This document shows, piece after piece, positions 1,301 to 63,855 of a stretch of 64,000 bases of DNA. This stretch comes from Tribonema minus (taxonomy: Eukaryota > Sar > Xanthophyceae > Tribonematales > Tribonemataceae). The stretch covers positions 124,001-188,000 of the forward strand of contig JAFCMP010000077.1 in assembly GCA_017506865.1 (NCBI GenBank). The letters are read 5' to 3'. Within the stretch, counting starts at the first letter, position 1; every line of letters begins with the position of its first letter. The translations under genes were made by a program, and so were the position numbers. The notes beneath the pieces are model-generated. The model was not told the origin of the DNA. It saw only the letters and a program-made list of their open reading frames with translations, and searched no databases.

Positions 1301-1609
1301 GCGCACCACTGTCATATTTGAGATATGCAGGCGTGCGCACAATACTTCCAAAGTTCGCGCTGACAGCCCATGATCCTTCCGCACACACAGCGCGCGGCCA
1401 GGCATCAACGCTGGCGCTCTGCAAAAAACAACTTCAACTTCAACACATCGTGCGCGTGCGCTGTGACGAAGAAGAAGGTGAGCACATGATACTTCGGCGC
1501 TGACGGCGCACGAGCCTCCTGCACCGATGGCGCTTGGCCAGGCGTCATGATCAGTGCTCATCAAGTTCAAACTTCAACTTGAACATGCATTGCATGCGCT
1601 GTGACGCAC

Positions 1610-1726
1610 CGTAGAAGCCGGCGACGACGCTCGAGTTGGACCAAATCTCCTGGTAGAGCCTGAACAGCACTGCCAGGCAGTAGGCGAGCGTCGCGCCCTG
1701 TCCGTAGTTGTGGTTGATCGCCTCCG
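1610..1726 (-). CDS. Sodium:solute symporter family protein, internal exon
   Basis: This exon reads EAINHNYGQGATLAYCLAV then LFRLYQEIWSNSSVVAGFYG. That is the region after the second membrane segment of sodium:solute symporter (SSS) proteins, where a residue pattern like YRLYNEVWSNxxVVAxFYG is typical. The acceptor is gcgctgcag at about 1727 and the donor follows FYG (GTGCGTCAC) at 1609. The phase (1) joins exactly to the exon at 3640-3934, which ends YGSL-G, giving YGSLAEAINHNYG. The family consists of multi-pass membrane carriers that couple solute uptake to sodium. The rest of the gene downstream is not recognised. Seven copies of its first part lie upstream in the intron. Family assignment is from remembered motifs, not a search. 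Confidence 0.65.
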
Positions 1727-2765
1727 CTGCAGCGCGCGGCAGCAGGCGACGCCGTTGCAGAGACAGGCGTGTCAGCACAAGTGGTGATTACAGGTGTGCC
1801 ACACTTGAAGACGGCGACAAGTGCGTAATCACTTGGAGTGAGCGCTGCGCCCTGTCCGTAGATGTAATTGATCGCCTCCGCTGCGGCGCGGCAGCAGGCG
1901 ACGCCGGTGCAGAGGCAGGCGCGTGAGCACGAAAGGTGCCTCACCGCTTGACGATGAAAAAAGTGGTGACGACAGGTGCGTCAAACCTTGAACAGGCAGT
2001 ACGCAAGCGTCCTGGCCGCGATGACAAATGATCGCCTCCGCTGCAATGCGCAGCAGCAGGCGCCGGTGCAGAGGCAGGCGCGTGAGCACGACAGGTGCGT
2101 TACCACTTGAATATGAGGGAAGTGGTGAATGACAGGTGTGTCACACCTTGAACAGACAATACGCGAGCGTCGCGCGCCCTGCTCGTGGTTGTGGTTGATC
2201 GCCTCCGCTGCAATGCGCAGCAGGCAAGGTGGAGGTGCAGAGGCAGGCGTGTCAGCACGATAAGTGCACCACCACTTGAAGACGAAGGAAGTTGTGATGA
2301 CAGGTGTGTCACACCTTGAACAGGCGGTACGCGAGTGTCACGCCCTGTCCGTAGCTGTGGTTGATCGCTTCCGCTGCAGTGCGCAGCAGACAAGGCGGAG
2401 CCGGACAAGTTAGCATGACAGGCGGGAACAACAGGTGCGTCACCACTTGCAGATGAAAAAGTGGTGACGACAGGTGCGTCACAGCTTGAACAGGCAGTAC
2501 AAGCGTCGCGCCCTGTCCGTAGCTGTGGTTAATTGCTTCCGCTGCAGTGCACTGCAGACAAGGCGGAGTCAAACGAACTTAGCATGGCAGGCGGGAACAA
2601 CAGGTGTGTCATCACTTGTAGATGAAGAAGTGGCGATGACAGGTGCGTCACACGCTGAACAGAGTACGTGAGCTTCGCGCGCTGGCCGTAGTTGCGGTTG
2701 ATTGCCTCCGCTGCTGGGCGCGGCAGCAGGCGACGCCAGTGCAGAGGCAGGTGCGTGAGCACGAC
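1690..2765 (-). repeat. Exon-border echo array: seven copies of an acceptor plus exon start
   Basis: The start of the symporter exon at 1726 recurs upstream on the minus strand at about 1840-1925, 2020-2090, 2165-2250, 2330-2400, 2500-2570 and 2680-2760, spacing 160-190 bp. Each copy keeps a pyrimidine/CAG acceptor and the coding for AEAINHxYGQGATLAY. It then leaves the true exon and runs into a short tail ending TTCAAG followed by GTGTGAC, a possible donor. Each copy could therefore act as a cassette exon of about 60 nt, which would shift frame. The spacers share CACTTG/TTGAA pieces and a GGTGCGTCAC word. Confidence 0.85.
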
Positions 2766-3097
2766 AAGTGGTGATGACAAGTACGTCACCAATTGAAGAT
2801 GAAGGGGTGCGTCACGACCTGAAGACACCGATTGAAGAGAAAGATGTGAAGGCCTGCGGATTGAGCGTGCGTGCATGTGCGCCTGCGCGTGTCATTGATG
2901 GCGTGTGCGCGCGTGCTCTTGCAGCGGTTTTTATTTAAATGTTTAGGTAGGTTTAGGTGATGCACTGCGCAGCGGTGTTTATTTATTTCTGGGCAGCTTT
3001 AGGTGATGCACTGTACGACCAACTTCAACTTCAAGTGCAGGCGCGTGGGTCACCATATCCCTGGACGGGCCCCATGCACAGGAACGTCTTTGACCCC

Positions 3098-3116
3098 GAC
3101 CCTGACCCTAACCCTA
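3098..3116. repeat. Interstitial telomere-like repeat (CCCTAA type)
   Basis: A short degenerate run, CCCTGACCCTAACCCTAA. Similar short patches occur at about 652-680, 15100, 48655-48690 and 50815-50835. Confidence 0.75.
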
Positions 3117-3234
3117 AGAACATCCGGTGTCATGGCAAGATGTGGATGCGCAGCTGCCCTCACCACACAAACCCTCTGCGCTGTCGCCAACGTGCGGCAC
3201 ACAGCTGATGCCAAACTTCACCGCCAACTTCAGC

Positions 3235-3600
3235 TGCGCGCGGCTCACCAAGGCTGCCGTAGCCGTAGCACATCCGCAGCGGAGACGCCGGGGCCCCACG
3301 CTGAGGAACGTGACGTAGTAGCACGCATGTGCGAACCCGCCCATGACGGTAAACTTCAATGTAAACTTCAACTTCAGCATCGCACCGCTGCCATACCCGT
3401 AGCGCGTCCGCAGCCGGTACGCCATGAGCCCGACGCTGAGGAACGTGACGTAGTAGCACGCGTACGCAGGCTGCATCATGTTGAACTTCAACTTTAACTT
3501 CAAATTCAACATCAAGTTCAGCAGTGACTCACCAAGGCTGCCGTAGCCGTAGCACGTCCGCAGCCGGTACGCCGTGAGCCCGATGCTGTGACACAGCATT
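3235..3600 (-). repeat. Exon-border echo array: copies of symporter exon end plus donor
   Basis: The last 60-90 bases of the exon at 3640-3934, coding for YACYYxTFLSVGLTAYRLRTRYGYGSLGE, recur downstream on the minus strand at about 3535-3590, 3400-3480 and 3237-3335. The 3535 copy keeps the GGTGAGTCAC donor. The spacers are built largely of TTGAAGTTGAAGTT runs. The copies are diverged and carry small indels, so the three cannot all be read in one frame. Confidence 0.85.
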
Positions 3601-3639
3601 AAACTTCAACTTCAAGTTCAGCAGCGGCGGGTGACTCAC

Positions 3640-3934
3640 CGAGGCTGCCGTAGCCATAGCGCGTCCGCAGCCGGTACGCCGTGAGTCCGACGCTGAGGAA
3701 CGTGATGTAGTAGCACGCGTACGCGAAGCCGCCCATCACTCCAAACTCGCCGCCGAGCGTCGACGCGTTGTAGATGCTCTTGGCGAAGACCCACGAGATG
3801 AAGGCGCTGCTGCCGAGCAGGAAGCACGACGCGCCGTCGTGCGTTTTGCTCGTGAAGTACGCGCGGTAGAAGGCGAGCGGCGCGCTGTGCGGCGGCGATA
3901 TCGCGACCAGGAATATGCCATAAACTAGCATGGT
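3640..3934 (-). CDS. Sodium:solute symporter family protein, N-terminal-half exon
   Basis: The exon encodes about 98 residues: a hydrophobic segment (MLVYGIFLVAISPP), a loop, then GSSAFISWVFAKSIYNAST and a second hydrophobic segment ending LRTRYGYGSL. The ISWVFAKSIxNAS and GGxxGxxGGxAYAxYY motifs are characteristic of the sodium:solute symporter superfamily, around its first two or three membrane helices. The acceptor is CCCCCCGCAG at about 3935 and the donor GGTGAGTCAC at 3639, phase 1, joining to the exon at 1610-1726. The N-terminal start exon is not seen. The likely role is sodium-coupled solute uptake at a membrane; the substrate cannot be told. Both borders have been copied into the neighbouring introns. 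Confidence 0.7.
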
Positions 3935-4180
3935 CTGCGGGGGGGCGGCGGGGGGTAGGCATGTATGTGAGGCGCATGCCGCACGCGAGCATGGTCTGCA
4001 AAGGCGGGTAGGCATGCATATGAGGCGTAGAACTTCTGGTGAAGTATGCGCGGTCGAAGGCGAGGGGCGCGCTGTGCAGCGGCGAAACGCCACCAGGAAA
4101 AGGCCGTACACGAGCATGGTCTGCGGGGGGGGGTCCGTATATACGTGAGGCGTATGCCGCATGCAAGCATGGTATCGAAG
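3935..4180 (-). repeat. Exon-border echo array: copies of symporter acceptor border
   Basis: About 95 bp from the start of the exon at 3934 (coding MLVYGIFLVA and beyond) is repeated at about 4027-4130, where it reads MLVYGLFLVAFRR. Shorter pieces with the word AGCATGGTCTGC, which contains the acceptor CAG on the minus strand, lie at about 3985-4005 and 4158-4180. Spacing is 60-120 bp. Confidence 0.8.
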
Positions 4181-4199
4181 GCGGGGAGGCATGAATATG

Positions 4200-6690
4200 A
4201 TAGATATCTAGATAGGACGCTGCTGCCAAAACCGCTGTAACACTGATGTCACAACTTGCAAACTTGAAAAAAAAACAATCATCTCTGATGGCTGCAGTCA
4301 AGTCCAGTATGCCCAGTTTTTTCCTGTTCAAGCACAACCCAAGTGCGATACACTGATCATTGTTGGCCCCTGTTCTCTTTTATCTGGTAATCTTCAATTG
4401 ATGTTGGTTGGCGCACTTCATTTCTGCAGACGCTTACTGGTTTTTGTAATGCAAGTCACTCATTGGATGCACTGGGAGCAGTGCTGTTGCTGCCTGCTCT
4501 TATCCGCACGTGAGGATTGCCCAAGCACGTTCTTGCACCATGCGTGTCGCGCAGCTATGTTACACGCCCACTGACTCTCATCTGCCTCGCTGTAGTGCTT
4601 TATGCAGCTAGATGATGTACGTGCAAGTACAATTGACAAAGGTATTCAAGCCTTTGCAGCGCCGACCCAATACATCTGGATCTGGAAACTTTAGCTGACT
4701 TTCCAGACCCTTTTGGTCTGAACACAAGTATGTGAAAGTTACTTGAACAGATCTGTCTAGTGGCAAGCATTCATCGGAGCCAGCCAGACTTTTACATGAG
4801 ATCATCCACATAAAGTGTTTTTTTTTGCTTGAACACTCAGGCTGGTGGCCTTGTAACTAAGCAGATCTGCTTTCAAATGTCTTCTGCTGGTATGATTTAC
4901 CAATCAGCAACGGGGCTTTATGAAGGCATCCATGACCTGCGTCAGGTTCCGGCGCGAAAGCATGCCGACACTTGTCTCACGAAGTCTCGGCCCCGCCGCG
5001 CTTGATTGATGCGTGGTCTGCATTGCAGTCGTCAAGCGCGCGCAGTCTGGCTGACGCCGATGCTGAGAGCCGCGCCACCGCCAGATCCAAAGATACATTT
5101 TACTGTGGAGTGGTGTATGGAGTGAAAGTGAAGTTGTTTGTTTACAAAGCTCATCCACGGATGCACATGTGCAGATACCACCAACGCTGGGGCAGGTAAA
5201 GCGTGCTTGTCCCAAAGTCTCATTGCTTTTTGACTGCGGATTTTAATTGACGCAGGGTTGTGTACATAAATGACTGTGCCGTACCGAACCACCAGAGAGC
5301 AGGCCCCGATTAGACTGAGGTAAGAGGCGCCATGAGGCAGAGCTAACGTTCAATGCTTGTGGCGACTCACATGCCATTGGGGGTCAGCGCCTGTTGCAAA
5401 CACAGCGATCTCAGTGGCGACCCAGACCGCCACGCAGCCAAGGAACCACTTGCTGCAGAGATGATGCCGGCATCTGGCGACGAAGCTGCCTTCGCCACTC
5501 AGCGCCACATTGCCGGCCTCCTGCTCCATCGTCCTGCGGGTGGTCCTTCTATCCTAATGGCTGAGACAGGATCCTTGGAGCGCCCCCCTGCATGCGGGGC
5601 ACATAGAGTCTCTGAGGGCTTCGTGGAGACACAATCATTCACCTCTCTCCTTGGTCACAAAACCTGCGCCGCGTCCACGCACGCAGGCGTGCACGTGTTT
5701 GTTCCGACTTGAGTTTGCCAACCGTCAACACCCAGCACTGCCACGTGGTGGCACCAAGAACCTTGTACGAAAACGGGGGGGTGCAAATTGGGCAATGCCA
5801 TCACTGCAGATCTGCGCCACGAGACTGTGAGCTGTGTGCCCCCCCCCCTACAAGTGATATTCTCACTCGGTCATGCATATACCATAGCGCCGGAGACAGC
5901 ACTGTATGATAGAACTGTCGTGGTTCGACACATGTGACAACAGCCTGCGGCGTTTCTGAACTTGTAGCGTATTAAATAACGCGCCGTTACATCGTGCAAC
6001 CAACATGCTATGTAGTGCTAGAAGAAACTTCGGCATAGGCAGAAACTGTGCATGCGCCTATAGGGCAATGGCATGCAGGCCCTGCAATCAAGGGTGTGCA
6101 CTCAGTCTGGCAGACGTCTGCAGTATCAGAGGGGCCCCAGCGCATTATGCACCAGTGGACAACATCAAGGCTGTCGTAGCCTACTGAGATGTCCTAGCGT
6201 TCCTACGCTGCAAGGCAAGTGCCACAACGGGGCACTAAACAGGAGGTTAGAGCTCAGCTGACGTGAAGCATGACACCGAAGCGCATCATGGCAAGACTGT
6301 TGCAGCAGCTGCTGCTCGCATGCAAGTTGAACCTCAACGGCATGCCGTACATGCAAGCAGAACGAAAGCAGAAGAGCACGCGCCAAGTTGATGAGCCGCC
6401 ACATGTACAAGTATAGCCCACGGTGTCATTCACGGATGCGATGGGGTGCACACTAGCACACACTACAGGCGGACTTGGCCGCGAGCAAGATGTAATGCAG
6501 AATAACGGTTGTGCGTCAAAAGCGGACACTACACGGCAGCTGCCGCCGTACGCTGTCAACAAACCAATACCGCATCTAGCCTAGGCCTGAGGGGAATAAG
6601 CGCGCCACGCCATACGCTGTGAGTAAACCAATGTTGCACCCACTTAGTAGGGGGAGTAAGCGCACTGTGCGCAAGTAAATGACGTCGCGA
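4200..6690. other. Stretch with no gene I can support
   Basis: About 2.5 kb of less GC-rich sequence. Open frames are short. The longest (plus strand, 5353-5712, 119 codons from an ATG) has no recognisable motif, no clear splice context and ordinary composition. A minus-strand frame at 4904-5215 ends SRRNLTQVMDAFIKPRC and could be a terminal exon of something unknown, but nothing confirms it. I see no repeats of note. Confidence 0.5.
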
Positions 6691-6693
6691 TTG

Positions 6694-7758: not shown

Positions 7759-8467
7759 AACTTAGGCTTCGGTGTCAAGAGCACCGAGCTTTGCCATTCA
7801 CTTGCGTCATGTACGGCTGCTGCGCGAATTGGTTGGCTGAAACAAAGACGATGCCGCCCCGCTGAGTGCGCGGCTGCGCTTGGCCTCCAGGGGCCTTCCT
7901 CCCTTCCTATGTGTTGCTAGTTTTTAAAGTACAACCTGAGGCGCAGAACAAACTTCAACAGGGGTGGGGGGGTGTGGTTGAAGTTCCGTCGAAAGTTTGG
8001 TGCGGATCACGTTTGGTGCCAGATCTCGCGACGCAGGCCGAAAGCCGCTGGCAGCTGGGGCTTGGGCGAGAGCCGAGAGGACTGGCGAATTTCTATTGGG
8101 GTCGCCGCCGCCTGCGGCCGCTGCATGCCTCGGCACGAGCGAGAAAAGCCGGAAGTCTTAGGCGGTGAAGTTGCCACGTGGCCTTTTGTTGACACGTGGA
8201 TGGGCTCAGAGGGCTTGCAGTACGCAGATTCGCTGGGTGACGCGTGTCATTTTGACACGTGTCACACGCTCGACGGCCGCGGTATCGGAGCTCGGCATCT
8301 CGCTGGCCAGCCTTGCGGCCACCGTCGTGCAGCGCCACGGTGTGCAGTAGAGCAGAAACCAGCTCGCAAGCGGGCTTAGCGAGGTTGGTGGCAACAGCGA
8401 TGGCCTGCACCTGCACTTTAGAAGGAAAGCACGTACCTGTGACCGACCTCCGTGCAGGCGCCTGGTG

Positions 8468-11039: not shown

Positions 11040-11124
11040 GGCCTGCTCAAAAAGCGCGACGACCGCCACCTCCTGCGCGACCGCGACTGGATAGAGGCGC
11101 AGATCCTGCAGGCGCTGCGGCCGC

Positions 11125-11155
<31 letters not shown>

Positions 11156-19500: not shown

Positions 19501-22500
19501 CCGCCTGGCAGTGCACAGGTCGCAGCGCAGCGCTAACCCTAACCCTAACCCTACACCGACGACACAAATAAGGATACTTGCAGCGCGCGCGACCATGCGA
19601 CGATGCGTCAAACCATCATACTTCTTTGAAGTACATACATACCTTTGTCCTGCCAGGCAGCACGCTGCCAGCGCCTCCAGCGCGCCGCACTCGCCTGTCA
19701 TTTGTAACTGTAGTGTGTAACTGCCACTGCAACACTGCTACATGCCGCGCCAAAGAGGTGACGCTCCATACCTCTGCCCCGCCAGGCAGCACCGACTACT
19801 GAGCATCAGCTCTGTCTACGCTGCAACAGTTGTGTCATGGAAACGCTTCAAAAGATCGTCGAGTTCTAGGTGACAAGGAGTGGTTAGCCGCAAGTGCCTT
19901 CCACCAATAACCGTGGTCGCCGCTGCTGCAGTCATTGGCCACGAGTCAAACAATTGTGTCACACCATCATACATACCTTTGCCCCGCCAGGCAGCACGCT
20001 GCCAGCGCCTCCAGCGCGCCGCACTCGCCCACCGCGGCGCACGCCGCCTCGTTCTGGTGCGTGAGGTTCACCAGCACGCGCGCCGCCGCCAGCAGCACCT
20101 CCGCCGCGCGCGCGGCGCTGCCGCTGCCGCCGCCGAGCAGCGCTGCGGATGCGCAGACATAGTGGACGATGTATGAGCGGCTGAGTTGCAAATGGAGATT
20201 CGCTTGTGGATTGAACATGTAGAAAATGGGCATGTTATGCGGCCAGAGCGATGCTGCTGAGCGTTGTTGCTGCTTCTGATATTGCTGAGCAGCGTCGCTG
20301 CATGATCATGGAGCAGCTTATCTGAGGAAGACAGACGCCTGCAGAGTACATGGGCCTCCACACGGGCAGCTGTTCAAGGCAACAGGAATGGATGCGTAAC
20401 TGCTACAAATTTGAATTTGCTTGAAGTTGATGTTCAGGTGCCACGTGCGACAGACTAGCCAATGACGAGGACCATGCCTGGTTATGGGGTCCTTCACATA
20501 CCTCAAGTATGTGGAATGGGAGCACGCGCTCTAAGCTGCAGCGCAAATGAGGGATTCAGTGTGGCCAGCGCTGCTGCCTGCAGTATACCGCGGCTGCGTT
20601 GCGCAACACAAAGTACAAGGGCGGCGGCAACTACGAGGGCCCGCAAGCCCGGTGGCCAGCGGTCATTATGTGTGAGGCCCTCCCTGCACACGGCAACAAT
20701 TGCGGGTGCAGGGCAGTAGTTGAAGTGCAGAGTTGAGGTACACACTCAACTGCACGGCACGCCCCTCCTACATACCGTACAAGTGCAGGGCACCTGAAAG
20801 AGAATACACTCCAATTGAAGTACCTGTGATGGCTGCGCCCGAGCAGCGCGGCCGCTGCCCGCCGCCGGCGCCGCTGCCGTTCAGCGGCAGCAGCGGCGGC
20901 GGCGGCGAGTGCTGCAGCAGCTGCAGGCAGTGGCACATGACCGCGTCCAGTGCTGGCAGCAACGCTCCGGAGGCCGTTGCCTGCATACACCATGCATCAC
21001 ATGATAATGCTCCAGTGTGTTACAGGTGAAGTGTCGGTGCGACGGCCACGCGACGCAGTGCTCGTTGATGCTGTAATGTAGCAGAAATATCTTATACTTC
21101 TGGTTGAAGTGGGCTGTCGGTGCAACATCCACGTCAGCGCCGCACCACGCACTGCGTGTTCATGCTCTATGGTGTGTCACACTTGAAGTTTCAGTGCGAC
21201 GATAATAGCCGCTCGGCACAAATGCGTGCAAACATTGATGCGGCGGGAGCTGCAGCAGTGGAAGTTGCAGCGTCCTGTTCTGCGCAACATGGTAATGCAC
21301 CTGTACATGCAGCTTTTTTCCTCCCCGGCTTGACACACATGGGGCACGACACCGTTCACTGAACTGTCACATGTAACGGTCAGAGCCCGGGACGCTCTCT
21401 GAGTGGCCACGAACCGGACAGACGTTGGGCGGTTACATAACCTCAACACGCCCAAGGCCACCAGCACATGAATGCATGGATACACCTTGAGTACACAGGA
21501 GCACGCTGTTGGTACACACAGTACACCATGAGTCCAGATGAGCGCATCATCACGTGACCAACCTGTCTGGCAGTTTCTGCGTTTGAGTACACGTCACGAG
21601 TACAGATAAGTTCATAATCAATTACCGACCTGTCTTGCGTTTTCAGCGATTGAGTGCACACGAACACGCTGTCGGTACGCACAGTACACCAAGTACAGAT
21701 GAATTCATCATCGTCGATGACCGACCTGTCTGCCATTCTCAGCGATTGAGCGCACATGAGCGCGTTGGCAGTACGCACAGTACACCATGAGTACACACAA
21801 GTTCATCGTCGATGGCATGGTCGACCTGTCTGAACAATGACGACCGACCTGTACGCTCTCAGTACACACAGTACACCACGAGTACAGATTATATATCATC
21901 ACGTAACCGACCTGTCTGGCGATTTCAGCGTTTGAGTACACATGAGCGCGCTGTCAGTACGCACAGTACACCACGAGTACAGGTGAGTACAACCGACCTG
22001 TCTGGCGTTTTCAGCGTTTCTGTGCGTCACCAGCTCCAGCAGGCGCAGCGACGGCAGCAGCTGGTGCGCGGCCAGCTCCCTGAGCGCTGCTGACTCGGCT
22101 TTAACAGGCGCCGATCCCCAGCCGTTACTTCTGCATGCATCAAACGGAGACAACCAACACCCACGTTGGACGCCCGTGAGTACACACCGCTTGCGCACGG
22201 TGTCGATAAGGTGGCGGTGACGTTTCGTTGTGCACTTGCTGGGTGTGCATGCATGACAAGTGCGGCCATAGATCAGCTTACAGCGCAGCTTTATAATTAC
22301 ACGGACAGCTCTCTGAGCGCTGACTTGGCCTTAATGGGCGCCGCTCCTCAGCCGTTACTTCTGCACTCAACGGAGACAACCCGTGCGGGACGCCCGTTAG
22401 CACACACCGCTTGCGCACGCTGTCGACAAGGTGGCGGTGACGGTCCGTTGTGCACTTGCTGGGTGTACATGCATGACGAGTGCGGCCATCAATCAGCTCA

Positions 22501-46088: not shown

Positions 46089-48577
46089 ATGAAGCCTGTG
46101 TCGGATGCGCAACCACATGCTGGACCGACCGACACACAAAATTGCACTCAAAGCGATGCAGCAGAGGTCGAAAACTTCTTCAACGACACCGCGTCCGCTC
46201 CACCCTCTTTGAAGTCCCATGGCGAGGCCCTGGCGAGCTTTGTAGGCGAGCAAATCAGCGTGGGCAGGCCCATCGTGTGCGTGTCCGCGGGGGGAACCAC
46301 AGTGCCGCTGGAGGCCAATACTGTGCGGTCCATCGACAACTTCAGCACAGGCATGCGAGGCGCTCTGTCGGCGGAGCAGTTCCTGGCGCTGGGGTACGCG
46401 GTCATCTACCTGCACCGCAAGGGCTGCGCGGCGCCGTACGCCAGGGTGATTGCCGACAAGCTCTCGCCTCACGTGGATCTTCAGCTGATGGACCGGCTGC
46501 GGCTGAACCCGAGCAGGAGGCTGGAGCTGACGACGGGGGACATGGAGGCAGGCAGGGAGGACGCGGACGAGGCGTTGGTGGGGGCGTTGGTGGCGTATCA
46601 GGCGGCGCGCGACGACCGCGCGCTGCTGGCGGTGGCGTTCACGTGAGTGCGCGGTGTACACCACCAAGATGGAGTCTGAGAAACACAAAGGGGGCCTCAA
46701 AGTTCAAAAGACTACTTCATCTTGTTTTTGGATGAAGTGGACCAGAGCGCCACAGCATGAGAAGATGTTGGCGAATGCAACCTGAAGTGTGCAAGCGCGG
46801 GTGATTTTGGCCACAGTCACGTGTTGGGCTCCTGGTAATCATGTGGGCTCTCGGAGGTCAGCATCAGTAGCATATTGGCGTCGAGGGACGGTGCTGCTGG
46901 CGGTGGGTTACCTTAATGCAACCATGCACAACGCTGCAGCGTGACAATGTAATAGAAAGACGCGTTGTTTGTTCATTCACATGATTGCCAAACACCCTCA
47001 TGGCGCTTACAACTGGGCATGCGGCCATCAGCACTGTGCGGCAAAAGCAGACCGTCAGCGATGAAATGAGTGCTTAGCAGAGACCAAAGCGCACAGAGTA
47101 CCACGCCATGGCTTCCCTCAGCCACCACCGTCGGCGCCTTGCGTTCATGGGGTATTGAGCCGTCTACATGCACATCACTCAGCAACCGTCAGCACTTGCC
47201 GTAACCTCAACTTCCCACGTCGCTCACAGCACCTCGTTGAACCCAACTTCAAACTCTGCTGCCGCCGCCGCCGCCGAGCACTGCTGCGCGCCTGACGCAC
47301 CCCCCTACAGCCTGAACGTGGTCGCTGGTGTGGCACAAACGCCTGCCGCTGTCCGCGCGTCGCTCGCATGCCAGACAACAACAATGCGCTGACACAACTT
47401 CAACTTTCTCTGCCGCGCCGCCGCCGCCGCCGCCGCGCAGCACGGTGCACGAGTACCTGTGGCTGCTGCGCCTCACCGCTCAGCACCTGCGCCCCCTCGG
47501 CCGCCACGCCATGGCCTACCTCGCCGCCGCCGTCAGCGACTTCCACCTCCCCCCCGCCGCAATTCCGCGCCACAAGGTGCAGTCCGAGGGCGGCGCCGCG
47601 GGGCTCGAACTTCAACTTCAAGGCGTGCCGAAGTGCCTCGGGGCGCTGAGCGCTCACTGGGCGCCGCGCGCGTTCCGCGTCGCCTTCAAGCTGGAGACGG
47701 ACGCGGCGCTGCTGCTGCCGAAGGCGCGCGCGGCGATCGCGCGCCACGGCGTCCACCTCGTCGTCGCCAACGAACTTCATGTGAGGGGACGCTCCGACCG
47801 CGCAACAGACAGTTTGTGAACAGTTGTTTAGATCAAAGGACCGGGGTCAGGCTATGGCTAGGTCAGTGAGCGAACCCTAGGTCAGATCGCGCGCCACGGC
47901 GTCCACCTCGTCGTCGCCAACGAACTTCATGTGAGGCTGCGGGGGGTGTTGGGTTGGGAGGGGGGGTGTTAGATGCGGCGTCAGAGCGAGTGGTGTGTGC
48001 GTGTACGGCAGGGCTGGGGTACTTCATGTGAGGGGACGCTCCGCCGCGGATTAGGCAGCCTGTGACCGATAATGCCTGTCTGTACCTGACAGCTCATGGC
48101 CCCCCGTACCCCCCCCTACCCACTGATGGCTCACTCCCCCCCCCCCCCCCCCCCGCGCTTCTCTTATGCCAGTCGCGCTACAGGCACGTCGACATCATCT
48201 CCGCAGACGCCGTCCTGCCCATCGACCGCGACGACGCAGACACGCCCATTGAAGTTCCTCTCGTCGCAGAAATCGCGCAGTGCCACTTCAACTACATCGC
48301 CGCCGCCGCCGCCGACGGCGGCGACGACGATTCGCAGCAGCATGCTTCAGCAGCAGCAGCCGCGAAACCGCTGATACCGCGGCGCGCGGTGCTGCGGCGC
48401 GTGTGGCAGCGGCGTTTACAGAAAGCGGTTACGTACGGCGCGCTGCCCGCGGGGTTCCTGCTGTCGCTGTGGCTGCAGCGGCGGCTGCTGAGCGCGCTGC
48501 GTGGTTTGAGAGAGGGGGGGGGGGACGCGCAGGGGGGAGTAGGGGGGGGCACGCGGCCGAGCGCGGCACGAGGCTAA
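46089..48577 (+). CDS. Phosphopantothenoylcysteine synthetase (PPCS), eukaryotic type
   Basis: Three exons (46089-46642, 47441-47780, 48173-48577), about 432 residues, phases exact. Motifs run in family order: VCVSAGGTTVPLE, VRSIDNFSTGMRGA (nucleotide and substrate loop), YAVIYLHRKG, TTVHEYLWLLR across the first junction, AMAYLAAAVSDFHLP, HKVQSEGG, FKLETDAALLLPKA, HLVVANELH, then SRYRHVDIISAD. PPCS joins 4'-phosphopantothenate to cysteine in coenzyme A synthesis, using a nucleotide; human PPCS uses ATP. After the usual end there are about 75 extra residues, including an Ala-rich run and a hydrophobic segment (GALPAGFLLSLWL) that could be a membrane tail. The ATG at 46089 is the first in frame. 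The end of exon 2 is copied nearly perfectly in the next intron. Confidence 0.93.
47730..48060 (+). repeat. Exon-border echo array: PPCS exon 2 donor border, three copies
   Basis: The last 48 bp of exon 2 plus the first donor bases, from GATCGCGCGCCACGGCGTCC through the GTGAGG donor (47733-47786), recurs without a mismatch at about 47886-47939. A third, shorter copy at about 48018-48060 keeps ACTTCATGTGAGGGGACGCT and the intron sequence after it. The first two copies differ only after the donor, so this is one of the youngest events in the window. Confidence 0.95.
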
Positions 48578-52907: not shown

Positions 52908-55900
52908 CTAGAAGATGGCCATGAGCACAAAGCAGCAGTACAGGAGGCCGATCGGGTACGCGATGAGCCAGCGCTGATGCCGCATGTCCAGGTACTGCTC
53001 GAACAGCTGCGGCGCAGGAAATGCACGGAGGGCAAACGGCACACGTATCAGTGACACAGTGTATGTGTATCGCAATGCAGGAAAGCTACCGTATCGCTGC
53101 CGATGTGATGTGAATGATGAAAGGGGGTGCGCTGCGTTTGGAGCGCTGCTGACGTCGCGTGTTAAGGTACTGCTCAAACAGCTGGGGCGCAGGCAACGCA
53201 CGAGGGCAGACGGCACACAGATCAGAGCCTGTACATTGCGATGCTGGGGCTGGGAGACATGGTGTATCGCCGGCAGTGGGGGCGAGCAGCGTGATGTCAA
53301 CGATGCAAGCGGGTGCGCTGAGACACTGCCAAAACAGCTGCACTAGACCAATGCACCAGGGTAAAGCGCGCACAGATCAGTCTGTGGACACAGTCAGAAG
53401 AAGCAGCAGAAGACTGCCACCGGTTTGTGCTGTTGAATCTGTACATGTTCGAGTCTGTCGCCGCAAGTTGTAACTGCTGTAGCCGTAGGTGCCAAACGGC
53501 AACAAGCTTGTAACTGCCGTTTTGCTGCGCGCACGCACATTGTGCGGCGCTTGGGCAATGAACACAGGGTAGCGCTCACAGCGCGCGGCGCCGCGCCTAG
53601 GCAAGCTGCCGTGTGGCCAATCATATGATGTGGCATGTGATTGTGGTGTGAATGATGACGAAAAAAACGAGTTATGTGCAGACGGATGCAGCAGCGCTGC
53701 GACGAGGCTGCAGCGGCGCTGCAGCAGCCTGTTCGTGTAGCGCCATCTTTGGCAGGGCGGCAGCGCCAAACAAAAGCAGCGCTCAACCCCATGCGGGGAC
53801 CACCTGCGCGCATTGCCGTCCCGGCGATTGCGTGAAGCCCTCGCAGTGCATGCGTGCAGATACACATATACGGAAGGCGCACCTTTGGTCGCCGCGGTGC
53901 AGCTCCACGCGACAACAGCACCCTTACACAAAGCAGCACTCGACTGCTGCGCACATCACCCGTACACATCTCCGCGCCGACCAGTAGAAAAGGCGAGCAT
54001 TGCAACGTGAAGGCCATACGGTGTGCATCAGACCGCGTGCGCACCTTGGTCGCCGCGGTGCAGCTCCACGCGACGGCGGCGCCTGCGAGCGCGAGCCCCA
54101 CGCGGCCGCTGAGGTCGAGCGCGATGCCCACCGCGCTCAGCAGCACGACGGGCAGCAAGCAGTAGCCGAGGACGCTCGTCGTGCGCCACGCGTCGATGGG
54201 CCGGTCGCCCATGAGGTTCAGCACGAGGCTCAGCGCGCCGCAGCCGAACGCGCCAAAGCCGTAGATGTAGCCGAAGTGGAGCTTGCCGGCGAGGAGGAGG
54301 CACGTGCCGAAGACGAGCGCGAAGACGAGCGGGCCGGCGAGGTCCGTCTCGTCGAGGTACGCGCTCTCAATGCGCCGCGTTGGCACCAGCACCGCCCTGA
54401 AGTTTGAAAGCAACCGGGGGCGGATGTATTTAGGGCACGATGCGCGGCCAAAGCCAAAGCCGTTGTCAGAATGAATGACAAGCCACGCGAAGTCCGTCTC
54501 GTCGAGGTACGCGCTCTCGATGCGCCGCGTCGGGACCAGCACCGCGCTGGAGTTTGAAAACAATTGTAGGCGGCAGGGGGGGAAGGGGGCGGTGAGGGCT
54601 CAATGCGGGGGTATTTAGGGCTCCATGTGCGGCCAAAGCAAATGTTGGGGCCAGCTTTTTGAGCGTAAAACAAGGGGCCAAATGAGGTCCGTCTCGTCGA
54701 CGTATACGCTCTCGATGCACCGCGTTGGCACCAGCACCGCCGGATATCGTCAGCAACCAGCGGCGGGGGATTTTCAAAAGGCTCAATGCACCGGTAATCA
54801 GAGCTCAGTGCGCGGCCAGAGACAATGTCAGAGCAAGCGCTGTCAGCGTGAAATGAGGGGCCACGATAAGTCTGTCTCATTGAGGTAAGCGCTGTCCGTG
54901 CGCCGCATTGGCACCAGCGCCGCGCTGGATATCGTCAGCAACCGGGGGCAGGGGTAGTTAGGGCTCAATGCAGGGGGATATTAATGGCTCGATGCGCGGC
55001 CAAAGCCACTGTTGGAGCAAGCGCTGTCAGCGAAATGAGGTCCGTCTCGTCGAGGTACGCAGTCTCCATTCGCCGCATTGGCACCAGCACCGCGCTGGGG
55101 TGTGAGAGCGAACAAGAGCGCGCAAGGGGGGACGAAGTCCCTGTCTTCACGCATGTTTTGTGAGTCAAGTCGCCGACAAGACATCCGGTGCGGTACACAC
55201 GTGTCGGTGACTGGTCGACTGAGCAAAAAGAAGGGTACCGTATGGTCATATGTGACGTATCGAACAAGTAGTCGAAAAGCCGTGGCAACATTCAGGCGGT
55301 GGGAATAAGGCTAGGGTTAGCACAGACAGGACCGAGCCTTAACCCTAACCCTAACCCTAACCGCAGTACTCACTGACTGCTCGCACTTGAGCCAAGTGGA
55401 TCAATGGCAGGGTGAGACTGTCGCCCCGGCGCCATTGTCTCAAGGGAAACGCACATGTACAATAGGCACCAATCCTGGAGGCCGACTTGTGCAGCTGGCC
55501 TGTTTGTACATGTAAGGTTGCGCTGGCTTTCAGCGGGGCTCTACGGGTGCGCTGTGAGCACACTTAGGGTTAGGGTTAGGTCAGATTAGGGCTTGCATTG
55601 GGGTTAGGGTTGGGGTTAGGGTTACGGGTGCGCTGTCGCACAAGCGTACAACTGCATGGCGTGCATATTTGTACACGTTCGCGATGTGTCGGCCATCAGA
55701 GCCGACGGCAAAAGCAATTTATGAATTTAAGCTGTGACACATTCACTCCTCAGTACAGTTTTTTTGCCCAAGGACCTCAGGGCTGGTGTGTGAATATGTG
55801 TGAATATGGTGACTTATCGCTTAAAAACGCCTTAAGGCAAGCAGCCCGAATAGGTCAGAGTTGCAGAGGTAAGCCACGGTCTGACTACATAGGTGCGCTT

Positions 55901-56921: not shown

Positions 56922-57398
56922 CCCACTGCTTTGTGCTGTTGCGCTCTCGAGAGCGCACCTGTTGCACTGACTTTTTAGATTCTGCTGCCTTTGGCAGGTG
57001 CCATCACCAGCAGCAGCTGCTGCAACTGGCTTGCGTCAACAGTGTGTCTTGGCGGGCACTTAACAGCAACAAACCTCTCCACACCTCCACCTCCACCTCC
57101 GGAGGCTTCAAACAAAGTTTTCTAAAATCAAAGTTCAACTCTTTCGTCCGTTCTTTCAGGTTTGGTTTAGTGCACCACACAGAGAGCTCACACCACCACA
57201 CCCTGCTGAAAGCCGTACTGGAGTAGTAGCCATATCCCTGAGAGGCCATTAGTTATCGGACGCTTGCTCGGCCTGGGTGAGCTTGGGCGGCGATTATTCA
57301 GGGGAGTGATTGGGCTTCTACCTGCTTTTCAAAGCGCGTGCAGCCGGACCTCGAAGGCGTGGCATTGCGCGCTGGCGGCTGCTGCTGCATCCAGAGCG

Positions 57399-60300
57399 AT
57401 GGCGGAGCGGTGCTGGGAGAACACACTGGACGACTCGGCAGGTCCGCTACACACCCGCGGCAAGAGAGCGCACCTCACAACGACGTGCGCGCTTGTCCGA
57501 CGGCGTGTGTAAATGTTCTATCAGGTTCAACTTGCACCTCACTGCTGCCTCTGAGGAGCGCCTGCTGCTTTGCGTTGCCTGTGCAGACGTTGCCGGTCCA
57601 GACTGGGCCCTGGAAAGGGCCATCAACATAGCCAAGATCTGCTTGGCACGAGCATCCCCTCGGTCACGGTGAGCGACCACCTGCATCCGGTCGTTGCGCA
57701 TGCTTAGTGAGGTGCAAACATCATCACCCACAGGTAGCATTGGTGGCTGTGAAGTGTTGCCCTTGCTGCACTTGACACATCTGGAGTACCTGTATGATTG
57801 CATGCCACCAGAGTTGCACCGAACGCGATGCACCAGGCTCACGACAATTCGATGTTGCCCTCCGGCCCCTGCAGGGATTCTGGCAACTTCAGCGTGTACA
57901 CGGGTGCCCCCGGGATGGCTTACATGTGTATGAGGCTGGCCTCCATGCCCGGCATTGACCAGGACGCGAAACTACTGTTCCTGCGCATGGGGCACGAGTA
58001 CCTGCAGGCAAGATTCGGGTCGAACCTTCTCTAACAACAGCAGCTGGCCCTGCTGAGCATTGTGCAACAGTGAACCTGGTGCATTCCGCAGACCATGTCC
58101 TCTATGACTGTGACACGGCGATGCATTCATCGAGACCGCACGGGTTGAAACCTCTGTTTGCCCTCAACTTCAACCTGTGCCCTCGCCAATGGTCGTCCTG
58201 CTGCCATCCATCTGGCAGACGCAGGTGCGCTCTCTATATACGTGCATGTTTACCAAGTACCTGTAAAGCATGTTACACTGTCATCTAAATAAGCACAACC
58301 TTCGCTCATGCGCGCGCAGGATGAACATCCGTCGGCGATGACGCGTACTGTCGACCAGTCCACATGCGCTTGTGGCTACTACCTGCAACACCTGTAAATC
58401 ATACGTACAATAGGCAAAACCTAAACAAGCACCAGCTTCGCTCATGCGCGCGCAGAGCAAAGCTCCACCGGCGATGAGGCGTGCCTACATGTGTTTACTA
58501 CCTGTAAACCTATTTATCGTATTACAACATCTAAATAAGCACAACGTTCGCTCATGCGCGCGCAGGATGAAGCTGCTCCGCCGGCGATGCGGCGCGCCAT
58601 GAACCAGGTGGGACCCAGCCTGCTGTGCGGATACGCCGGCTATCACTGCGTGGCGGCGCTGTTCTCAAAGCGCGTGGCGGCGGACGCAGCGGCGGCTGCG
58701 GCGGCGGCTCAGGTGCGTCAGCAAATGTGAAGTTGATGCGACTCAACTTGAAGGTGTGGGGGTGCTGCTTTTTTGTGTTGTGTGCTGTTGGAGTCGGCCC
58801 CGGACACGGCGGCAGCAGCAGCAGCGTTGTGCGCTCCTAGGAGTGCGTAACCGCCAAGCGTAACCGCCAACCGTAGCCGCCAGGCGCAACTGCCAGACAC
58901 TTGTCAAGCTTTCACAGGAGGTTGAGAGAGTGTGTATGCATGTACCACAGCGTACTTGCCAGAGACATCCGGCTTGCTGTTTTGCGTCATCAGAGGTTCA
59001 AGGAACGTCTTCCTTTTCAACGAATTCAGTACAGATGCTTGTGCTTGTCAAGGTGCGACATAGAGCTGTTGAGCTCGTGAATATGCACATTTCTGACAGC
59101 CACTTCAAGTACTTGAAGTATGAAGTTTCAATGATGCTAGCACGTGGAGTGACTACTCCTGTAATACGAATCTTGTGTAACATTGCGTGCCTCTGACAGT
59201 GCAGGTACTGGAGCTCTTTTTTGTTGATGTTCGATCATGTGTATACACTCAGTTGCTTCGCAGTCGAGGTTGCTGCGTAGGAGGCCGTAGGCTGCTGCAG
59301 GGGAAAACCCTAGGCTGCTGCATAGGAGGAAGCCCTAGCAACACTTAGGACACCCAGCCTTCTTGAAGGGTGTTCATGCAAGTCCATGAGTACGTGCCGT
59401 TGCTTGTTGATGATGCACTTGATGAATGAGTTGACCTTGCTCTGTCTGACCTGGTTGGGCCTGCCGCTGCTGCCACAGACGTACGTGGAGCTGAGCGGCG
59501 TGGCAGCGGATCCGCGCTTTGACGCAGATGAGGTGCGTGGCGTCATGCTTCAACTTCAACTGCACATCATCTTCAAGTACATGCACTCTCGGATCGCTGC
59601 AACGCCGTCGCACCGCCTCACTGGCGCCCGTACCCGTGGACGCGCACCGCTGGCTCAAATTTGCCTAATGCTTTTCTCAACTTCAAACTTGAACTCTGGA
59701 TTGCTGTGACGCCATTGCGCCGCCTCACTCACTCCCCAGTGCGCGACGCGCACCGCTGGCTCAAACCGCCCCATGTTTTCCTCAACTTCAAACTTCAACT
59801 CCTGTTTTTTCGCGACGCCGCGCGGCAGCTCCTGTCCAGCCGTACCCGCGCACGCGCGCCGCTGATCCGCTGGCTCAATCGCCTCAGATGTTTGTCAACT
59901 TTAAACTTCAACTCTCATGTTTTTTGTGATCACGCAGTTTCTGTATGGCCGCGCGGGCTACCTCTATGGCATGGTGGCGCTGCGGCGGGAGCTGGGGGAG
60001 GCGGCCGTGCCGCTGGCGACGATGAGCGCTGTCGCAGGCGCCATTGTCGCGTCCGGGCGCGCGTACGTGCGCGAGGGTCGCCTGCAGCGGCGCGGGCACC
60101 TGCCGGTGAGAGACTTTGCCTCTGATAGGAATCTGACCGCGTCGGCAAGGCAAGGCGTCCCATAGCATTTGCATATGTGCGTCACAACTATCAGGTTGGG
60201 GCGCACGTACGTACTAGAGAGGGCCGGCTGCAGCGGCGGGGGCACCTGCCGGTGAGGGATGTCGCATAGTCTTGAACCCGAAGGCAGCTTCAGCAGCAGT

Positions 60301-63300
60301 GCATCCCTGCCCTCATGCGACTTGTGGAGTGTTGGTGAGGCACGCTGTGTGAAGTGCCGTCGAGCAGTAATGATGCGCCATTGAGCGCTGCTGCGCTGTC
60401 GTACGCATCATTGAGGCACTGCGTGTGTGGTTGAGGCATGCGACAGCAGCTGAAGAGGCGTGTGGTGCCGTTCTGCGCGGCGGTAGCAGTGGCAGTTACA
60501 CATGACAGTTACAGATGATAAGCGCTCCCGAAGGTAAGGGGGGGGGGGGGGGGGGGGGCGGGGCAGTGGCAGTCGCACATGGCAGTTTCATCTCTCATCC
60601 TTATCCAATCCCCGGACTTACGCCAACCGCACGCAGCCCATGTTCTGGGAATGGCACGCACATCTGCAAACCCTAACCCTAACCCTGCTGGGCCCTGGTA
60701 CCTTCCCTAACCTTCGTGCAACCCCAACTTGCGCCAACCACACGCAGCCCATGTTTTGGGAGTGGCACGCACATCGCTACGTCGGCGCGGCGCACGGCGC
60801 CATGGGCATACTGCACGCATTGCTGCTCTGCCCGGCGGAGCTGTGGGGGTCGGATGACACCGTCCTGAGGTATGTACGTATGTACGGCGTGACATTTTGT
60901 TGTGCGCAGGGGTACTTCGTTGATAAAGTTATGAGCGCTGCTGTGCACAGCAGAGCTGTGGGGTTTCGGATGACACCGTCCTGAGGTATGTACCTATGTA
61001 GGGTGGGCATTGCCTTTTCCTGTGCGCCAGGCGTAGTTCAATGAAGTACTGAGCGGTGCTGTGCCCGGCGGAGCTGTGGGGGTCGGATGACACCGTCCTG
61101 GGGTATGTAGGCATGCCTTGCTTTCTTGCGCGCACATTGCCTTGCTCTTTCAAGTGCCATGGCAGTTCACTGTTGCTGTACGTGCGTTGCCTTGCTCTTG
61201 CACGCGCTACCGTAGTTTGCTGTTGCTATATGTAGCGTGTGCTGTTGAGGTCCAACGGCGAAGTTTCCCAGCAGCGCGTGCGCCCTTCGGTGAAGCTGTG
61301 CGGGTTGGATGACACCCTCCCCAAGGTGCGTATGCACATAAGCCTGGTTTATCTCATGCACGGAGCGTGGTACTTCAATGTTGAAGTGCTAGGCAGCGCT
61401 GCGCCCGGCTGCGCAGGTCGGATGACACCGTGCTGAGGTATATACGTAGGGTGTGCGTTGCGTTTTCTTTGTGCGCCAGGCGTAGTTCAATGTTGAGGTA
61501 CTGAGCGGTGCTGTGCGCCCGGCGGAGCTGCGAGGGTTGGATAACGGCGTCCTGAGGTACACAATACATGGTTGTGTGTGCTGGAACACCTGTAACCTGA
61601 AGCACTGACGTTATCCACGGACGTTGCTCCGCTTCTGAATGCAACGCAGGGACTCCGTCGCGGTGTTGGGCTCTGTTTCTCGGTGTAGCAGCCCGGCTCA
61701 GCCAATATTGCCCACTAACAACCACACTCTTGCTTCCACTCATGCAGGGACATTGGCGCAACAGTGGACTTCCTTTTCTCGCTGTAGCAGCCCGGCTCAG
61801 TCGACATTGCCCACTAACAAGCACACTGTTGCTGTCACTCATGCAGGGACATTGGCGCAACGATGGACTTCCTCCTCTCGCTGTGGCAGCCCGGCTCAGC
61901 AAACTTCCCTGCAGCGCTCCAAGCGGACGCGAAGGACCTGGTGCACTGGTGCCACGGCGCCACCGGCGCCGTCTTCGCGTTCAGCACGGCGTACTGCGTG
62001 CTAGGTGCGTCACAGGTTGAAGTTGAACGGCTTCTTGTTCGTAGTTCAGCACGGCGTTCTGAACTCTAGGTGCGTCGTGTGTTGCAGTTGCATGGCGCCA
62101 ATGCTTCAGTGCTCAAAACGCCACAATGCCGTTTGCGCGTTCAGCACGGCGTACTGCGGCCTAGGTGCGTCACGAATTAAAATCGCACAGCTCTCATCAT
62201 GCATACAGCACGGCAAACTATGATGTCCGCGGTGCGTCACGCACCTTGAAGTTTGCGGCAGGGTATGATTTCTTGATAGCCTCCTCGTCCGGCACAGGGT
62301 CGTGTGTACGGCAGGCGTTGAAGTTCGGCAGCACCATTCTGCACATCCAGTACGCCGCACGGAGTCATTTTGTACATCATGCATTGAAGTTCTTGCGCGT
62401 TATTTTCTACGGTGGAGCACCGAAGTTCACCACGCATCCTCATCATCCACGATTGTCATCCAATTATAGGCTACAACCAAAGATCATGCGCAACCAGTGC
62501 ACGCTCTCCACACACGCAGGCTGTGCGTTCGCAATGGCATCACTTTGATATGTGTATCGTTGAAAAGGATGCGCATGGTGCGTGTGCTATCTGTATCTCT
62601 CAGGGCATCAGCGGTACCTGGACGCAGCAATCCTAGCGGGGGAGACTGTGTGGCGGCGGGGGCTGCTGAAAAAGGGCCCAGGTGAGAGAGCTACAGATTC
62701 ATTTGGCATAGAAACGAATTAAAATATTGTAGAGCTCTAGGTGAGAAGGTGTGGTTAGCCGCAAGTGCCTTCCACCGATAGCCGTGGTTGCCGCTGCTGC
62801 AGCAGTGTATATTTGCTCTCAGTGAATGGATACGTTGTGCATTGCAGTACCACGCGCTTTTGCACCCGCACACAGGCTGCCAAAGCGCTGATTCACGGCA
62901 GAGCGGCTGGCTGGTTTAGTTTGCAAAAAGCGGCTGTGTGTACTGAAAGTGTACCGCACCGTACCGTATTTGTACTCTGTTGTGTAGTTCGTACTCTGCT
63001 GCACACTTGAAGTTCCTCTTGCGTATCATCCTCACACGTTGGTAGTCACGCTGGCGAACTGCTGCGTCTGATACCGTACATATCCTACGCGCACACGCTT
63101 TCTAGGTGCTCGGGGACCGCTCCTCGACGCTCGTGCTTTGACGTGCTGTGCACGCGCGTGGGTGGCCATGACGCTGAGCCATCACCACACTGTACCTGTT
63201 GGCGCTGTTGAACCAACACTCTGATCATGTATACAAACAAACTGATCTGCACTTCAAAATACGCCTCCAGTGTGCTAACGGTTATACACTGCTCGGCCTG

Positions 63301-63451
63301 TGGCATTGCTATCCCTTGCACAGGTCTCTGCCACGGCGTCGCGGGCAATGCTTACGCGCTGCTGGCGCTGTTCCGCGTTACGCGCGACGCCAAGTACCTG
63401 CGCCGCGCGCACCGCTTCGCGGAGTTCATGGGCAGCAGCGACTTTGCCCAG
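57399..63451 (+). CDS. LanC-like protein (LANCL family), cut by the window end
   Basis: Ten exons: 57399-57441, 57587-57668, 57875-58007, 58566-58712, 59479-59532, 59938-60105, 60748-60869, 61847-62004, 62604-62681, 63324-63451. Together they give 371 residues, every phase matching; the C-terminus lies beyond the window. The GxxG motifs of the LanC barrel appear in order: VYTGAPGMAY, LCGYAGYHCV, LYGRAGYLYG, VGAAHGAMGI, HWCHGATGAV and GLCHGVAGNAY; the two CHG motifs hold zinc ligands. LANCL proteins bind zinc and glutathione, and in animals add glutathione to dehydroamino-acid residues. The N-terminus MAERCWENTLDDSA is short but plausible. Intron 3 uses a GC donor (CTGCAG then GCAAGA). Echo arrays sit at seven borders. 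Divergent from the Yip1 gene. Confidence 0.93.
58315..58600 (+). repeat. Exon-border echo array: LanC exon 4 acceptor border, three units
   Basis: Units at about 58270-58358, 58390-58486 and 58500-58600 share AACNTTCGCTCATGCGCGCG, the acceptor CAG and exon words GATGAAGCTGCTCCGCCGGC, GATGAGGCG. Only the last continues into the exon. Spacing is about 115-125 bp. Confidence 0.92.
60030..60258 (+). repeat. LanC exon 6 donor-border copy
   Basis: The exon 6 end (CGTACGTGCGCGAGGGTCGC then CTGCAGCGGCGCGGGCACCT, donor GTGAGAG at 60106) is copied at about 60203-60258 as GGCCGGCTGCAGCGGCGGGG and GGTGAGGGAT. The copy spans at least 45 bp. Confidence 0.9.
60628..61562 (+). repeat. Echo copies of both borders of LanC exon 7
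   Basis: Acceptor side: ACGCAGCCCATGTTNTGGGA then GTGGCACGCACAT at 60743-60778 (true) is copied at 60634-60664, with telomere-like CCCTAA units (60668-60686) right after the copy. Donor side: CCCGGCGGAGCTGTGGGGGT then CGGATGACACCGTCCTGAGG ending GTATGTA at 60829-60876 (true) recurs at about 60948-60992, 61062-61108, 61290-61328, 61400-61442 and 61515-61560. Spacers share GTGCGCCAGGCGTAGTTCAA and TACTGAGCGGTGCTGTG. Confidence 0.95.
61640..62240 (+). repeat. Echo copies of both borders of LanC exon 8
   Basis: Acceptor side: CATGCAGGGACATTGGCGCA and CTCGCTGTNGCAGCCCGGCT at 61841-61905 (true) recurs at 61741-61808 and 61645-61707. Donor side: TTCAGCACGGCGTACTGCGT then GCTAGGTGCGTCAC at 61979-62012 (true) recurs at 62045-62075, 62137-62172 and, decayed, 62205-62238. 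Confidence 0.93.
62705..62803 (+). repeat. Dispersed AGAGCTCT element, full-length type
   Basis: Contains GAAACGAATTAAAATATTG, TAGAGCTCTAGGTGAGAAGG, TGGTTAGCCGCAAGTGCC, TTCCACCGATAGCCGTGGTT and GCCGCTGCTGCAG. It lies in the LanC intron after exon 9 and is as complete as the copy at 19838. Confidence 0.9.
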
Positions 63452-63855
63452 GTACGCGAATGGACGTCCTTAACCATTGACGTCAGTTTGTAGTGGCCAC
63501 ACGAGAGGCCAGATGGCAATATGTATTTGGTCATTGACACTGGCGTATAATCGTCCCCAGAGAGACCCGCTGGTGTGATGGTTCTCTTTTCTTAGATCAA
63601 ATCTTACGCAATGACACCGGCTTCGGCGCCGCGCGCACCGCTTTGCGGAGTTCATGGGCAGCAGCGACTTCGCCCGGGTACATGCACGTACAGACGTCCT
63701 CAGTCATCGACATCTATCTACACTTGGCACACATGAGGCTGGACGGCTGATGTGCTTGGTTGTTGACATCGTTGTACACTGTGGCATTGCCGCCAGAGAG
63801 GCCGTATGTGCGATCTATCCCGAGCTCATGGACGGCAGCGACTTTCTCAGTGCAC
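63395..63855 (+). repeat. Exon-border echo array: LanC exon 10 donor border, three copies
   Basis: The exon end GAGTTCATGGGCAGCAGCGA then CTTTGCCCAG with donor GTACGCG (63423-63458) recurs at 63626-63685 (with GCGCGCACCGCTTTGCGGAG before it) and, decayed, 63820-63853 (GAGCTCATGGACGGCAGCGA). The 63626 copy keeps its donor as GGTACATG. Confidence 0.92.

Follow-up and report, generated by a model that had tools for sequence, protein, structure and literature searches.

The stretch analysed here, 64,000 nucleotides of the Tribonema minus contig JAFCMP010000077.1 (assembly GCA_017506865.1, positions 124,001 to 188,000 of the forward strand; the window), encodes Rab5, a LanC-like protein, PPCS and Yip1, and includes WAPL and symporter regions. 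At borders in these genes, the edge of an exon and its splice site recur within the adjoining intron, in copies that we refer to as echoes. Exon-edge echo arrays of this kind were described for eight genes in an earlier note on this DNA, and their presence in introns of T. minus, a xanthophyte belonging to the stramenopiles, is confirmed by our analysis, in which the whole assembly (158 Mb, 554 contigs) was searched.

Exon borders and their echoes

Exons were fixed by homology together with splice consensus, so that the test of their borders was not circular. This was done for four of the eight genes named earlier: Rab5, LanC-like, PPCS and Yip1. The three Rab5 exons give a spliced product of 194 amino acids that is 100% identical to the annotated T. 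minus Rab5. The five central exons of the LanC-like gene, all GT-AG, encode 218 amino acids unbroken in frame, and this product is 97% identical to the annotated T. minus protein JKP88DRAFT_287740 over the whole query; frame continuity was verified for these two genes. The first two LanC-like exons were taken from a home-made gene finder and agree with the annotated protein P0001 (window 58599 to beyond 64000). Elsewhere the gene finder supplied labels and a guide to other exon ends, and it was never the sole evidence in the border test; its role was restricted in this way because it calls echo copies as exons. A Pfam scan of whole frames, with stops written as X, gave five matches in nine frames. 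Three passed the cut-off, for sulfotransferase and, in two separate frames, for LanC-like; the match to WAPL and a further one to LanC-like fell short of it. For WAPL, one donor echo was confirmed by direct reading of the sequence, next to an exon whose Pfam match is the one below the cut-off.

In the border test, 35 exon bases and 10 intron bases were aligned with the adjoining intron, and the null consisted of 300 draws from the introns of other genes (threshold p<0.01, p floor 0.0033). The test covered 46 borders in nine genes, namely the four window genes and a second set of five Ras-family genes outside the window (23 borders), found by a family search of the genome. Two rows were changed before the count: the last Yip1 donor (52929) was left out, its exon end being uncertain, and one donor at locus L031 was added. 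An echo was found in the adjoining intron at 18 of the 46 borders (12/25 donors, 6/21 acceptors). The four window genes account for 13 of these among 23 borders, with none at the other 10, and the Ras genes for five among 23. Fifteen of the 46 borders score at least 44; the three weak ones that remain are the first PPCS donor, the last L029 donor and the first L033 donor.

The controls bear on orientation and position. When the intron was reverse-complemented, no border of the 46 scored above 24, and the 99% point of the null was exceeded at four, all with low scores; the intron on the wrong side gave scores no higher than 23, with that point exceeded in 2 of 36 cases, again all low. Strong copies are therefore strictly same-strand and same-side, and no inverted matches were found in 19 curated introns. 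In the window genes tested, exon edge and splice site do recur in the flanking intron, in one orientation and next to their own border, as the earlier note had it, and both donors (8/12) and acceptors (5/11) are affected. Echoes scoring at least 44 lie 99 to 786 bp from their parent, and neighbouring copies are mostly 75 to 230 bp apart. Coordinates are collected in Table 1. The symporter arrays were seen in self-alignment with the repetition that had been described for them.

Table 1. Parent exons and echoes in the window, by gene
Feature	Position	Strand	Basis or detail
Rab5 exon 2, parent of two arrays	37092..37296	-	Rab5 match in PDB, spliced open reading frame, identical annotated protein
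Acceptor-edge echoes of Rab5 exon 2	within 37297..37798	-	border copies at 37455, 37669, 37798
Donor-edge echoes of Rab5 exon 2	within 35549..37091	-	nine copies scoring at least 28
Donor-copy borders of Rab5 exon 2	36941, 36790, 36675, 36496, 36306 and four weaker	-	alignment
LanC-like exon	59938..60105	+	part of the spliced product that matches the annotated protein
Donor echo of exon 59938-60105	within 60106..60259	+	border at 60251
Acceptor echo of exon 60748-60869	60616..60664	+	border at 60637
LanC-like exon	60748..60869	+	homology/splice consensus
Donor echo array of exon 60748-60869	60870..61559	+	five copies, borders 60985, 61102, 61324, 61437, 61556
Acceptor echo of exon 61847-62004	61676..61846	+	border at 61748
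LanC-like exon	61847..62004	+	homology/splice consensus
Donor echoes of exon 61847-62004	within 62005..62173	+	borders at 62069, 62164
LanC-like exon	63324..63451	+	homology/splice consensus
Donor echoes of exon 63324-63451	within 63452..63851	+	borders at 63677, 63851
PPCS exon	47441..47780	+	PPCS match in PDB, Pfam PF04127
PPCS donor echo	47885..47936	+	52/52 bases identical (46 exon + 6 intron)
Second, partial PPCS donor echo with intron start	48021..48049	+	border at 48027
Yip1 exon	54045..54396	-	Pfam PF04893
Acceptor echoes of Yip1 exon	within 54397..55109	-	borders at 54546, 54741, 54924, 55094
Donor echo of Yip1 exon	within 53877..54044	-	border at 53883; close homology stops at +6
Acceptor echo of second Yip1 exon (start 53006)	within 53007..53225	-	border at 53181
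WAPL donor echoes	within 19634..19976	-	borders at 19772, 19643; parent exon end 19977
Symporter-region arrays	3213..4200	-	exons by gene finder only
Symporter-region array	1674..2818	-	period about 155-170 bp; exons by gene finder only

Content and divergence of the copies

The echoes of curated borders each carry a single border. Tandem exon duplication, which would copy the whole exon and both splice sites, is thus not what is seen, in agreement with the earlier note. The same note held that only edges are copied, and here our data point the other way: the intron flank is also homologous in 20 of 32 parent-echo pairs (p<0.01 against a shuffled control), sometimes shifted by an indel. In the long arrays at the Rab5 donor and at LanC-like 60870-61559, several units consist of exon edge, splice site and intron sequence, and in PPCS the sequence that follows the parent's donor from +7 is found again about 100 bp past the donor of the copy. 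Most events thus copied a segment spanning the border, with the flank altered later, and the restriction to edges is mostly an appearance that arises because the parent exon cannot change while the flank can. A plain 91-bp head-to-tail duplication is found in L004, in an intron labelled by the gene finder.

Divergence was compared separately for the two parts of each copy. For the 19 parent-copy pairs whose flank is homologous, pooled Jukes-Cantor divergence amounts to 0.083 for exon sequence and 0.232 for intron sequence; when copies are compared with one another, neither side being assumed constrained, the values are 0.141 and 0.238, respectively (17 such pairs, 5 borders; median per-border ratio 1.33). 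Exon parts were aligned under stricter penalties, which somewhat lowers the exon values. The shift from the first comparison to the second is in the direction predicted by constraint on the parent, and we attribute the faster decay of the flank largely to that constraint. Over 29 copies and 524 codons, the 142 differences between parent and copy fall on codon positions 1, 2 and 3 in the numbers 30, 31 and 81. Seventy-seven are synonymous and 65 nonsynonymous, and the 29 copies hold two stops and five indels.

Possible origins of the copies

We consider it probable that the echoes are explained by frequent small local direct duplications that selection tolerates only across or inside introns. 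In this model, the T. minus genome would suffer frequent short direct duplications of local sequence, in units of about 100-230 bp placed head to tail or with a spacer, perhaps through break repair or replication slippage. Duplications wholly within exons would break the protein and be lost. Those inside introns or across one border would survive, since splicing could still use the outermost true site. The copy would then decay while selection holds the exon and splice consensus of the parent, so that the exon edge and splice site would be the last recognisable part, the parent being constrained while the remainder drifts. The outcome would be a growing intron that carries decayed copies of real splice sites. 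The copies observed are of very different ages, with breakpoints blurred by that age, are direct, and are located in the intron beside their own border, and their direct orientation, close linkage and size below about 600 bp are those of repair-mediated or tandem local duplication. The splicing of parents alone, which gives the whole of Rab5 and the unbroken 218-residue LanC-like stretch, also counts for this explanation. The strict same-strand and same-side placement likewise agrees with the earlier suggestion of repeated local duplication in one orientation, with one end in the exon and the other in the intron.

Several results weigh against local duplication filtered by selection. Of the 15 arrays in the 19 curated introns, 13 reach exon sequence, compared with 36-54% in a neutral simulation in which duplications of 60-220 bp fell anywhere that did not break an exon and were followed by substitutions and indels (eight settings); these introns were partly selected because of the finding, the border excess rests on few of them, and one of the 13 arrays sits 64-102 bp inside an exon. 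At exon ends taken from the gene finder, the homology breaks off no more than 10 bp beyond the donor in 12 of 20 cases (18 arrays), as against 18-38% in four simulations; at an identity of at least 85% the count is 10 of 18, as against 0-50% (10-16 simulated cases each), so that this result varies with the indel rate. In 14 of 87 independent arrays, 11 of which have gene-finder coding sequence upstream, the two copies have a donor in common at 4-9 bp from the right end of the repeat. The corresponding null, in which positions were slid within the same repeats and no gene model was used, has a mean of 3.7 and a maximum of 10 in 2000 trials. This excess at donor ends hints that breakpoints are linked to splice sites or that the copies are conserved, and is short of proof because high indel rates narrow the gap to the simulation. 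Between copies, too, divergence is lower in the exon parts than in the flanks (pooled ratio 1.68), and none of the 46 exon positions in the PPCS echo has changed, though its intron flank has changed strongly. The synonymous share of the differences, 0.54, exceeds the 0.42 expected if the parent alone were constrained (binomial p 0.004, copies not independent) as well as the 0.27 expected without any constraint; we do not press the excess over 0.42, because copies of one border share parental changes. Lastly, just 16 of 143 pairs are adjacent (within 5 bp), and later indels and insertions were observed.

The donor-end counts speak for copying that is delimited by the splice site, with one duplication end set about 4-9 bases past the donor, for example through template switching or breaks associated with co-transcriptional splicing complexes. 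We regard this as unlikely. It draws further support from a stricter matrix cut-off, at which 10 of the 87 arrays have a donor at their right edge and 1 has one in the middle, and from near-identical exon parts that end at +6 (PPCS, Yip1), +2 (L013) and +9 (WAPL). However, flank homology goes on, often past an indel, in the 20 of 32 pairs described above, PPCS and L013 among them, and a copy at the kinesin gene C511 extends at least 27 bp into the intron. Acceptors lack a clear signal (15 at the edge, 19 in the middle, of 87), their peak 4-6 bp from the left end varies with the cut-off, and the wrong-end control with both site types pooled gave 18 of 87 against 24. A duplication process tied to splicing, with one breakpoint a few bases beyond the donor consensus, by which exon edges with working splice sites would be stamped repeatedly into introns, seems to us improbable; if true, it would be a DNA-level consequence of co-transcriptional splicing. 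Strictly splice-limited copying was also tried as an account of the two-copy echoes, and was weakened by the flank homology and by the divergence comparison.

It is quite improbable, judging from the sequences, that the copies are functional, serving as alternative donors, acceptors or mini-exons under selection. Such a role might account for the excess of synonymous differences, and in six of nine arrays the splice consensus matches that of the parent at 80% identity or more, yet in the other three it is poorly kept, down to 0.27, and stops and indels occur among the copies. The annotated P0001 does hold SDDTVLR and LRPDHPYSLF(K/E)GLSGAA twice each. One of these duplicated peptides matches the donor echoes of exon 60748-60869 and the other lies outside the homology-fixed exons, and the duplications may be an effect of gene prediction; in P0002, a metagenomic LanC relative, the SDDTVLR piece is single, and the annotated Rab5 protein uses none of its nine donor copies. 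Insertion of elements with long target-site duplications, the spacer being the inserted element and the echo the duplicated target, is a very unlikely source. The 127 of 143 pairs with gaps above 5 bp would suit it, as would a palindrome within a WAPL echo and the presence in the WAPL spacer of a dispersed repeat of about 116 bp with 39 matches elsewhere (40 scored of 2241 candidates). Against it, the 98-bp spacer between the two PPCS copies retrieves only itself from the genome, and several units of the long Rab5 and LanC-like arrays have intron sequence in common with their parent. The WAPL spacer qualifies two earlier claims: that arrays carry the sequence of their own gene, and that no mobile element is involved. 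Both otherwise fit the unique PPCS spacer, and the second fits the self-alignment of the window, in which 93 repeat pairs are direct and 4 inverted; of the direct ones, 89 are local (within 1 kb) and 4 non-local. An assembly artefact is a general risk with tandem repeats and would be the source only in an extremely improbable case, since divergence among the copies ranges from 0 to about 25%, non-repeated sequence lies between them, and they are found in several contigs.

Other loci, known systems and sequence motifs

Local direct duplication in the genome is widespread but uneven. Among 24 ten-kb stretches off this contig, picked without looking and some of them adjacent (short satellite stretches L019 and L020 excluded), local direct repeats of any kind, not exon edges identified by homology, cover at least 5% of the length in 12, and local inverted repeats do so in one. 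The earlier statement that echoes occur across most genes thus stands for the four window genes tested and gives way to a patchy picture elsewhere. Within the Ras set, L030 has no echo and L029 one weak echo; L033 was chosen for its repeating protein matches, and without it the set has three echoes, one weak, among 19 borders. A kinesin family search of the whole genome found two genes, C511 and C246, in which the end of an exon match is repeated just downstream. Both have donor echoes. In C511, 98 of 104 aligned bases are identical, with one gap, and the match crosses the donor and covers the first 27 bp of the intron, where the alignment ends; in C246 the identity is 82 of 87, stopping 11 bp beyond the donor. 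Both loci were picked for repetition, so they illustrate occurrence in other genes and not frequency.

Introner elements are splice-site-bearing sequences multiplied across a genome; the arrays examined here, by comparison, carry the sequence of their own gene only. Intron gain by tandem duplication of proto-splice sites has reportedly been described by Zhuo and colleagues in 2007 and by Gao and Lynch in 2009, both cited in PMC3488318. For Drosophila, Lehmann et al. (2010, PMC2891723) present tandem duplication, with AG/GT proto-splice sites, as an established way in which introns change. The likeness to that route is that splice-site sequence is duplicated beside itself; in T. minus, in contrast, an existing intron grows, and no new intron is bounded by the copies in Rab5 or LanC-like, since both genes splice from the parent donor to the downstream parent acceptor, in frame. 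Small tandem duplications made at induced breaks in cells, through fill-in of 3´ overhangs by Pol alpha-primase/CST (PMC8355091), are likewise short and direct, but the abstract of that paper names no exon border and the T. minus pairs are mostly spaced. A further relative is repair-mediated duplication capturing proximal chromosomal DNA in vertebrates, for which Pace et al. (2009, PMC2671141) describe closely linked duplications of up to 619 bp that include exons and intron splice sites. The earlier view that no named class fits was, given that work and the tandem-duplication route, too strong. Pace et al. give more than 1,000 probable events in the human genome; in T. minus a single gene can have arrays at many of its borders, and one border can have as many as nine copies. 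Among the titles and opening lines of abstracts listed by a search of the open-access literature, none describes such exon-edge arrays, and none announces the nuclear genome of T. minus.

What is unusual in T. minus is how dense the copies are, how often they recur at a single border and how they are linked to the donor site; the underlying local duplication is of a known kind. Several genes of one genome offer a view, at single-base level, of how introns can grow by absorbing parts of the exons next to them. Copies of differing age, with decayed sites beside real ones, could serve as a natural test of spliceosome choice and of the rate at which unused sites decay, and the same series could test for an exon-border bias of break repair. 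Annotators should be aware that echo copies occur in at least one deposited protein model.

Sequence motifs were considered in connection with the breakpoints. The words AACTTCAAC/GTTGAAGTT occur 42 times in the window, array copies included, where 0.3 would be expected (for example at 3602, 36910 and 47608). The PPCS exon contains AACTTCAACTTCAAG at 47608-47622, in frame as ELQLQ, so the abundant motif is present in coding sequence too. The palindrome TACTTCAA-N(0-6)-TTGAAGTA has 416 sites in the genome, with none for the reversed-pattern control. As a breakpoint signal, TTGAAGT/ACTTCAA together with this palindrome was rejected: repeat ends show no enrichment (20 of 236 against 14.8 at random) and spacers a weak one. 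In spacers, the suspected junction motif occurs in 15 of 84 (null 11.2, p 0.12) and its longer form in 5 of 84 (null 1.8, p 0.03); GAGCGCTG occurs in 8 of 84 (null 4.6, p 0.08), and a control word in none (null 3.5). Within array spans, where copies are not independent, TTGAAGT and GAGCGCTG reach 1.46 and 1.33 per kb, compared with 0.95 and 0.44 outside. The stretches L019 and L020, from small contigs, are dense in TTGAAGT (63 in 5.4 kb and 53 in 3.1 kb), with many direct and inverted local repeats.

Interstitial telomere-like runs of TTAGGG/CCCTAA are present at 60668, 3105, 19540 and 55564 and in L013 and L033, several of them in introns and near copies; they are not enriched in spacers (4 of 84, null 4.0). 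The dispersed repeat of about 116 bp lies at 19837-19952, 56209-56276 and 62704-62802, with its matches elsewhere at 89-96%; of six copies retrieved, the one in L034 sits, by eye, between two direct-repeat halves. Long poly-C tracts lie directly upstream of several acceptors or within introns at L030, L031, L032 and L033. Elsewhere in the window, a near-complete sulfotransferase domain (PF03567) is matched in one frame of the minus strand at 6793-7563, and an inverted repeat pairs 253-591 with 977-1299 (75% identity over an alignment of about 345 bp), accompanied by tandem repeats rich in CAG and in C.

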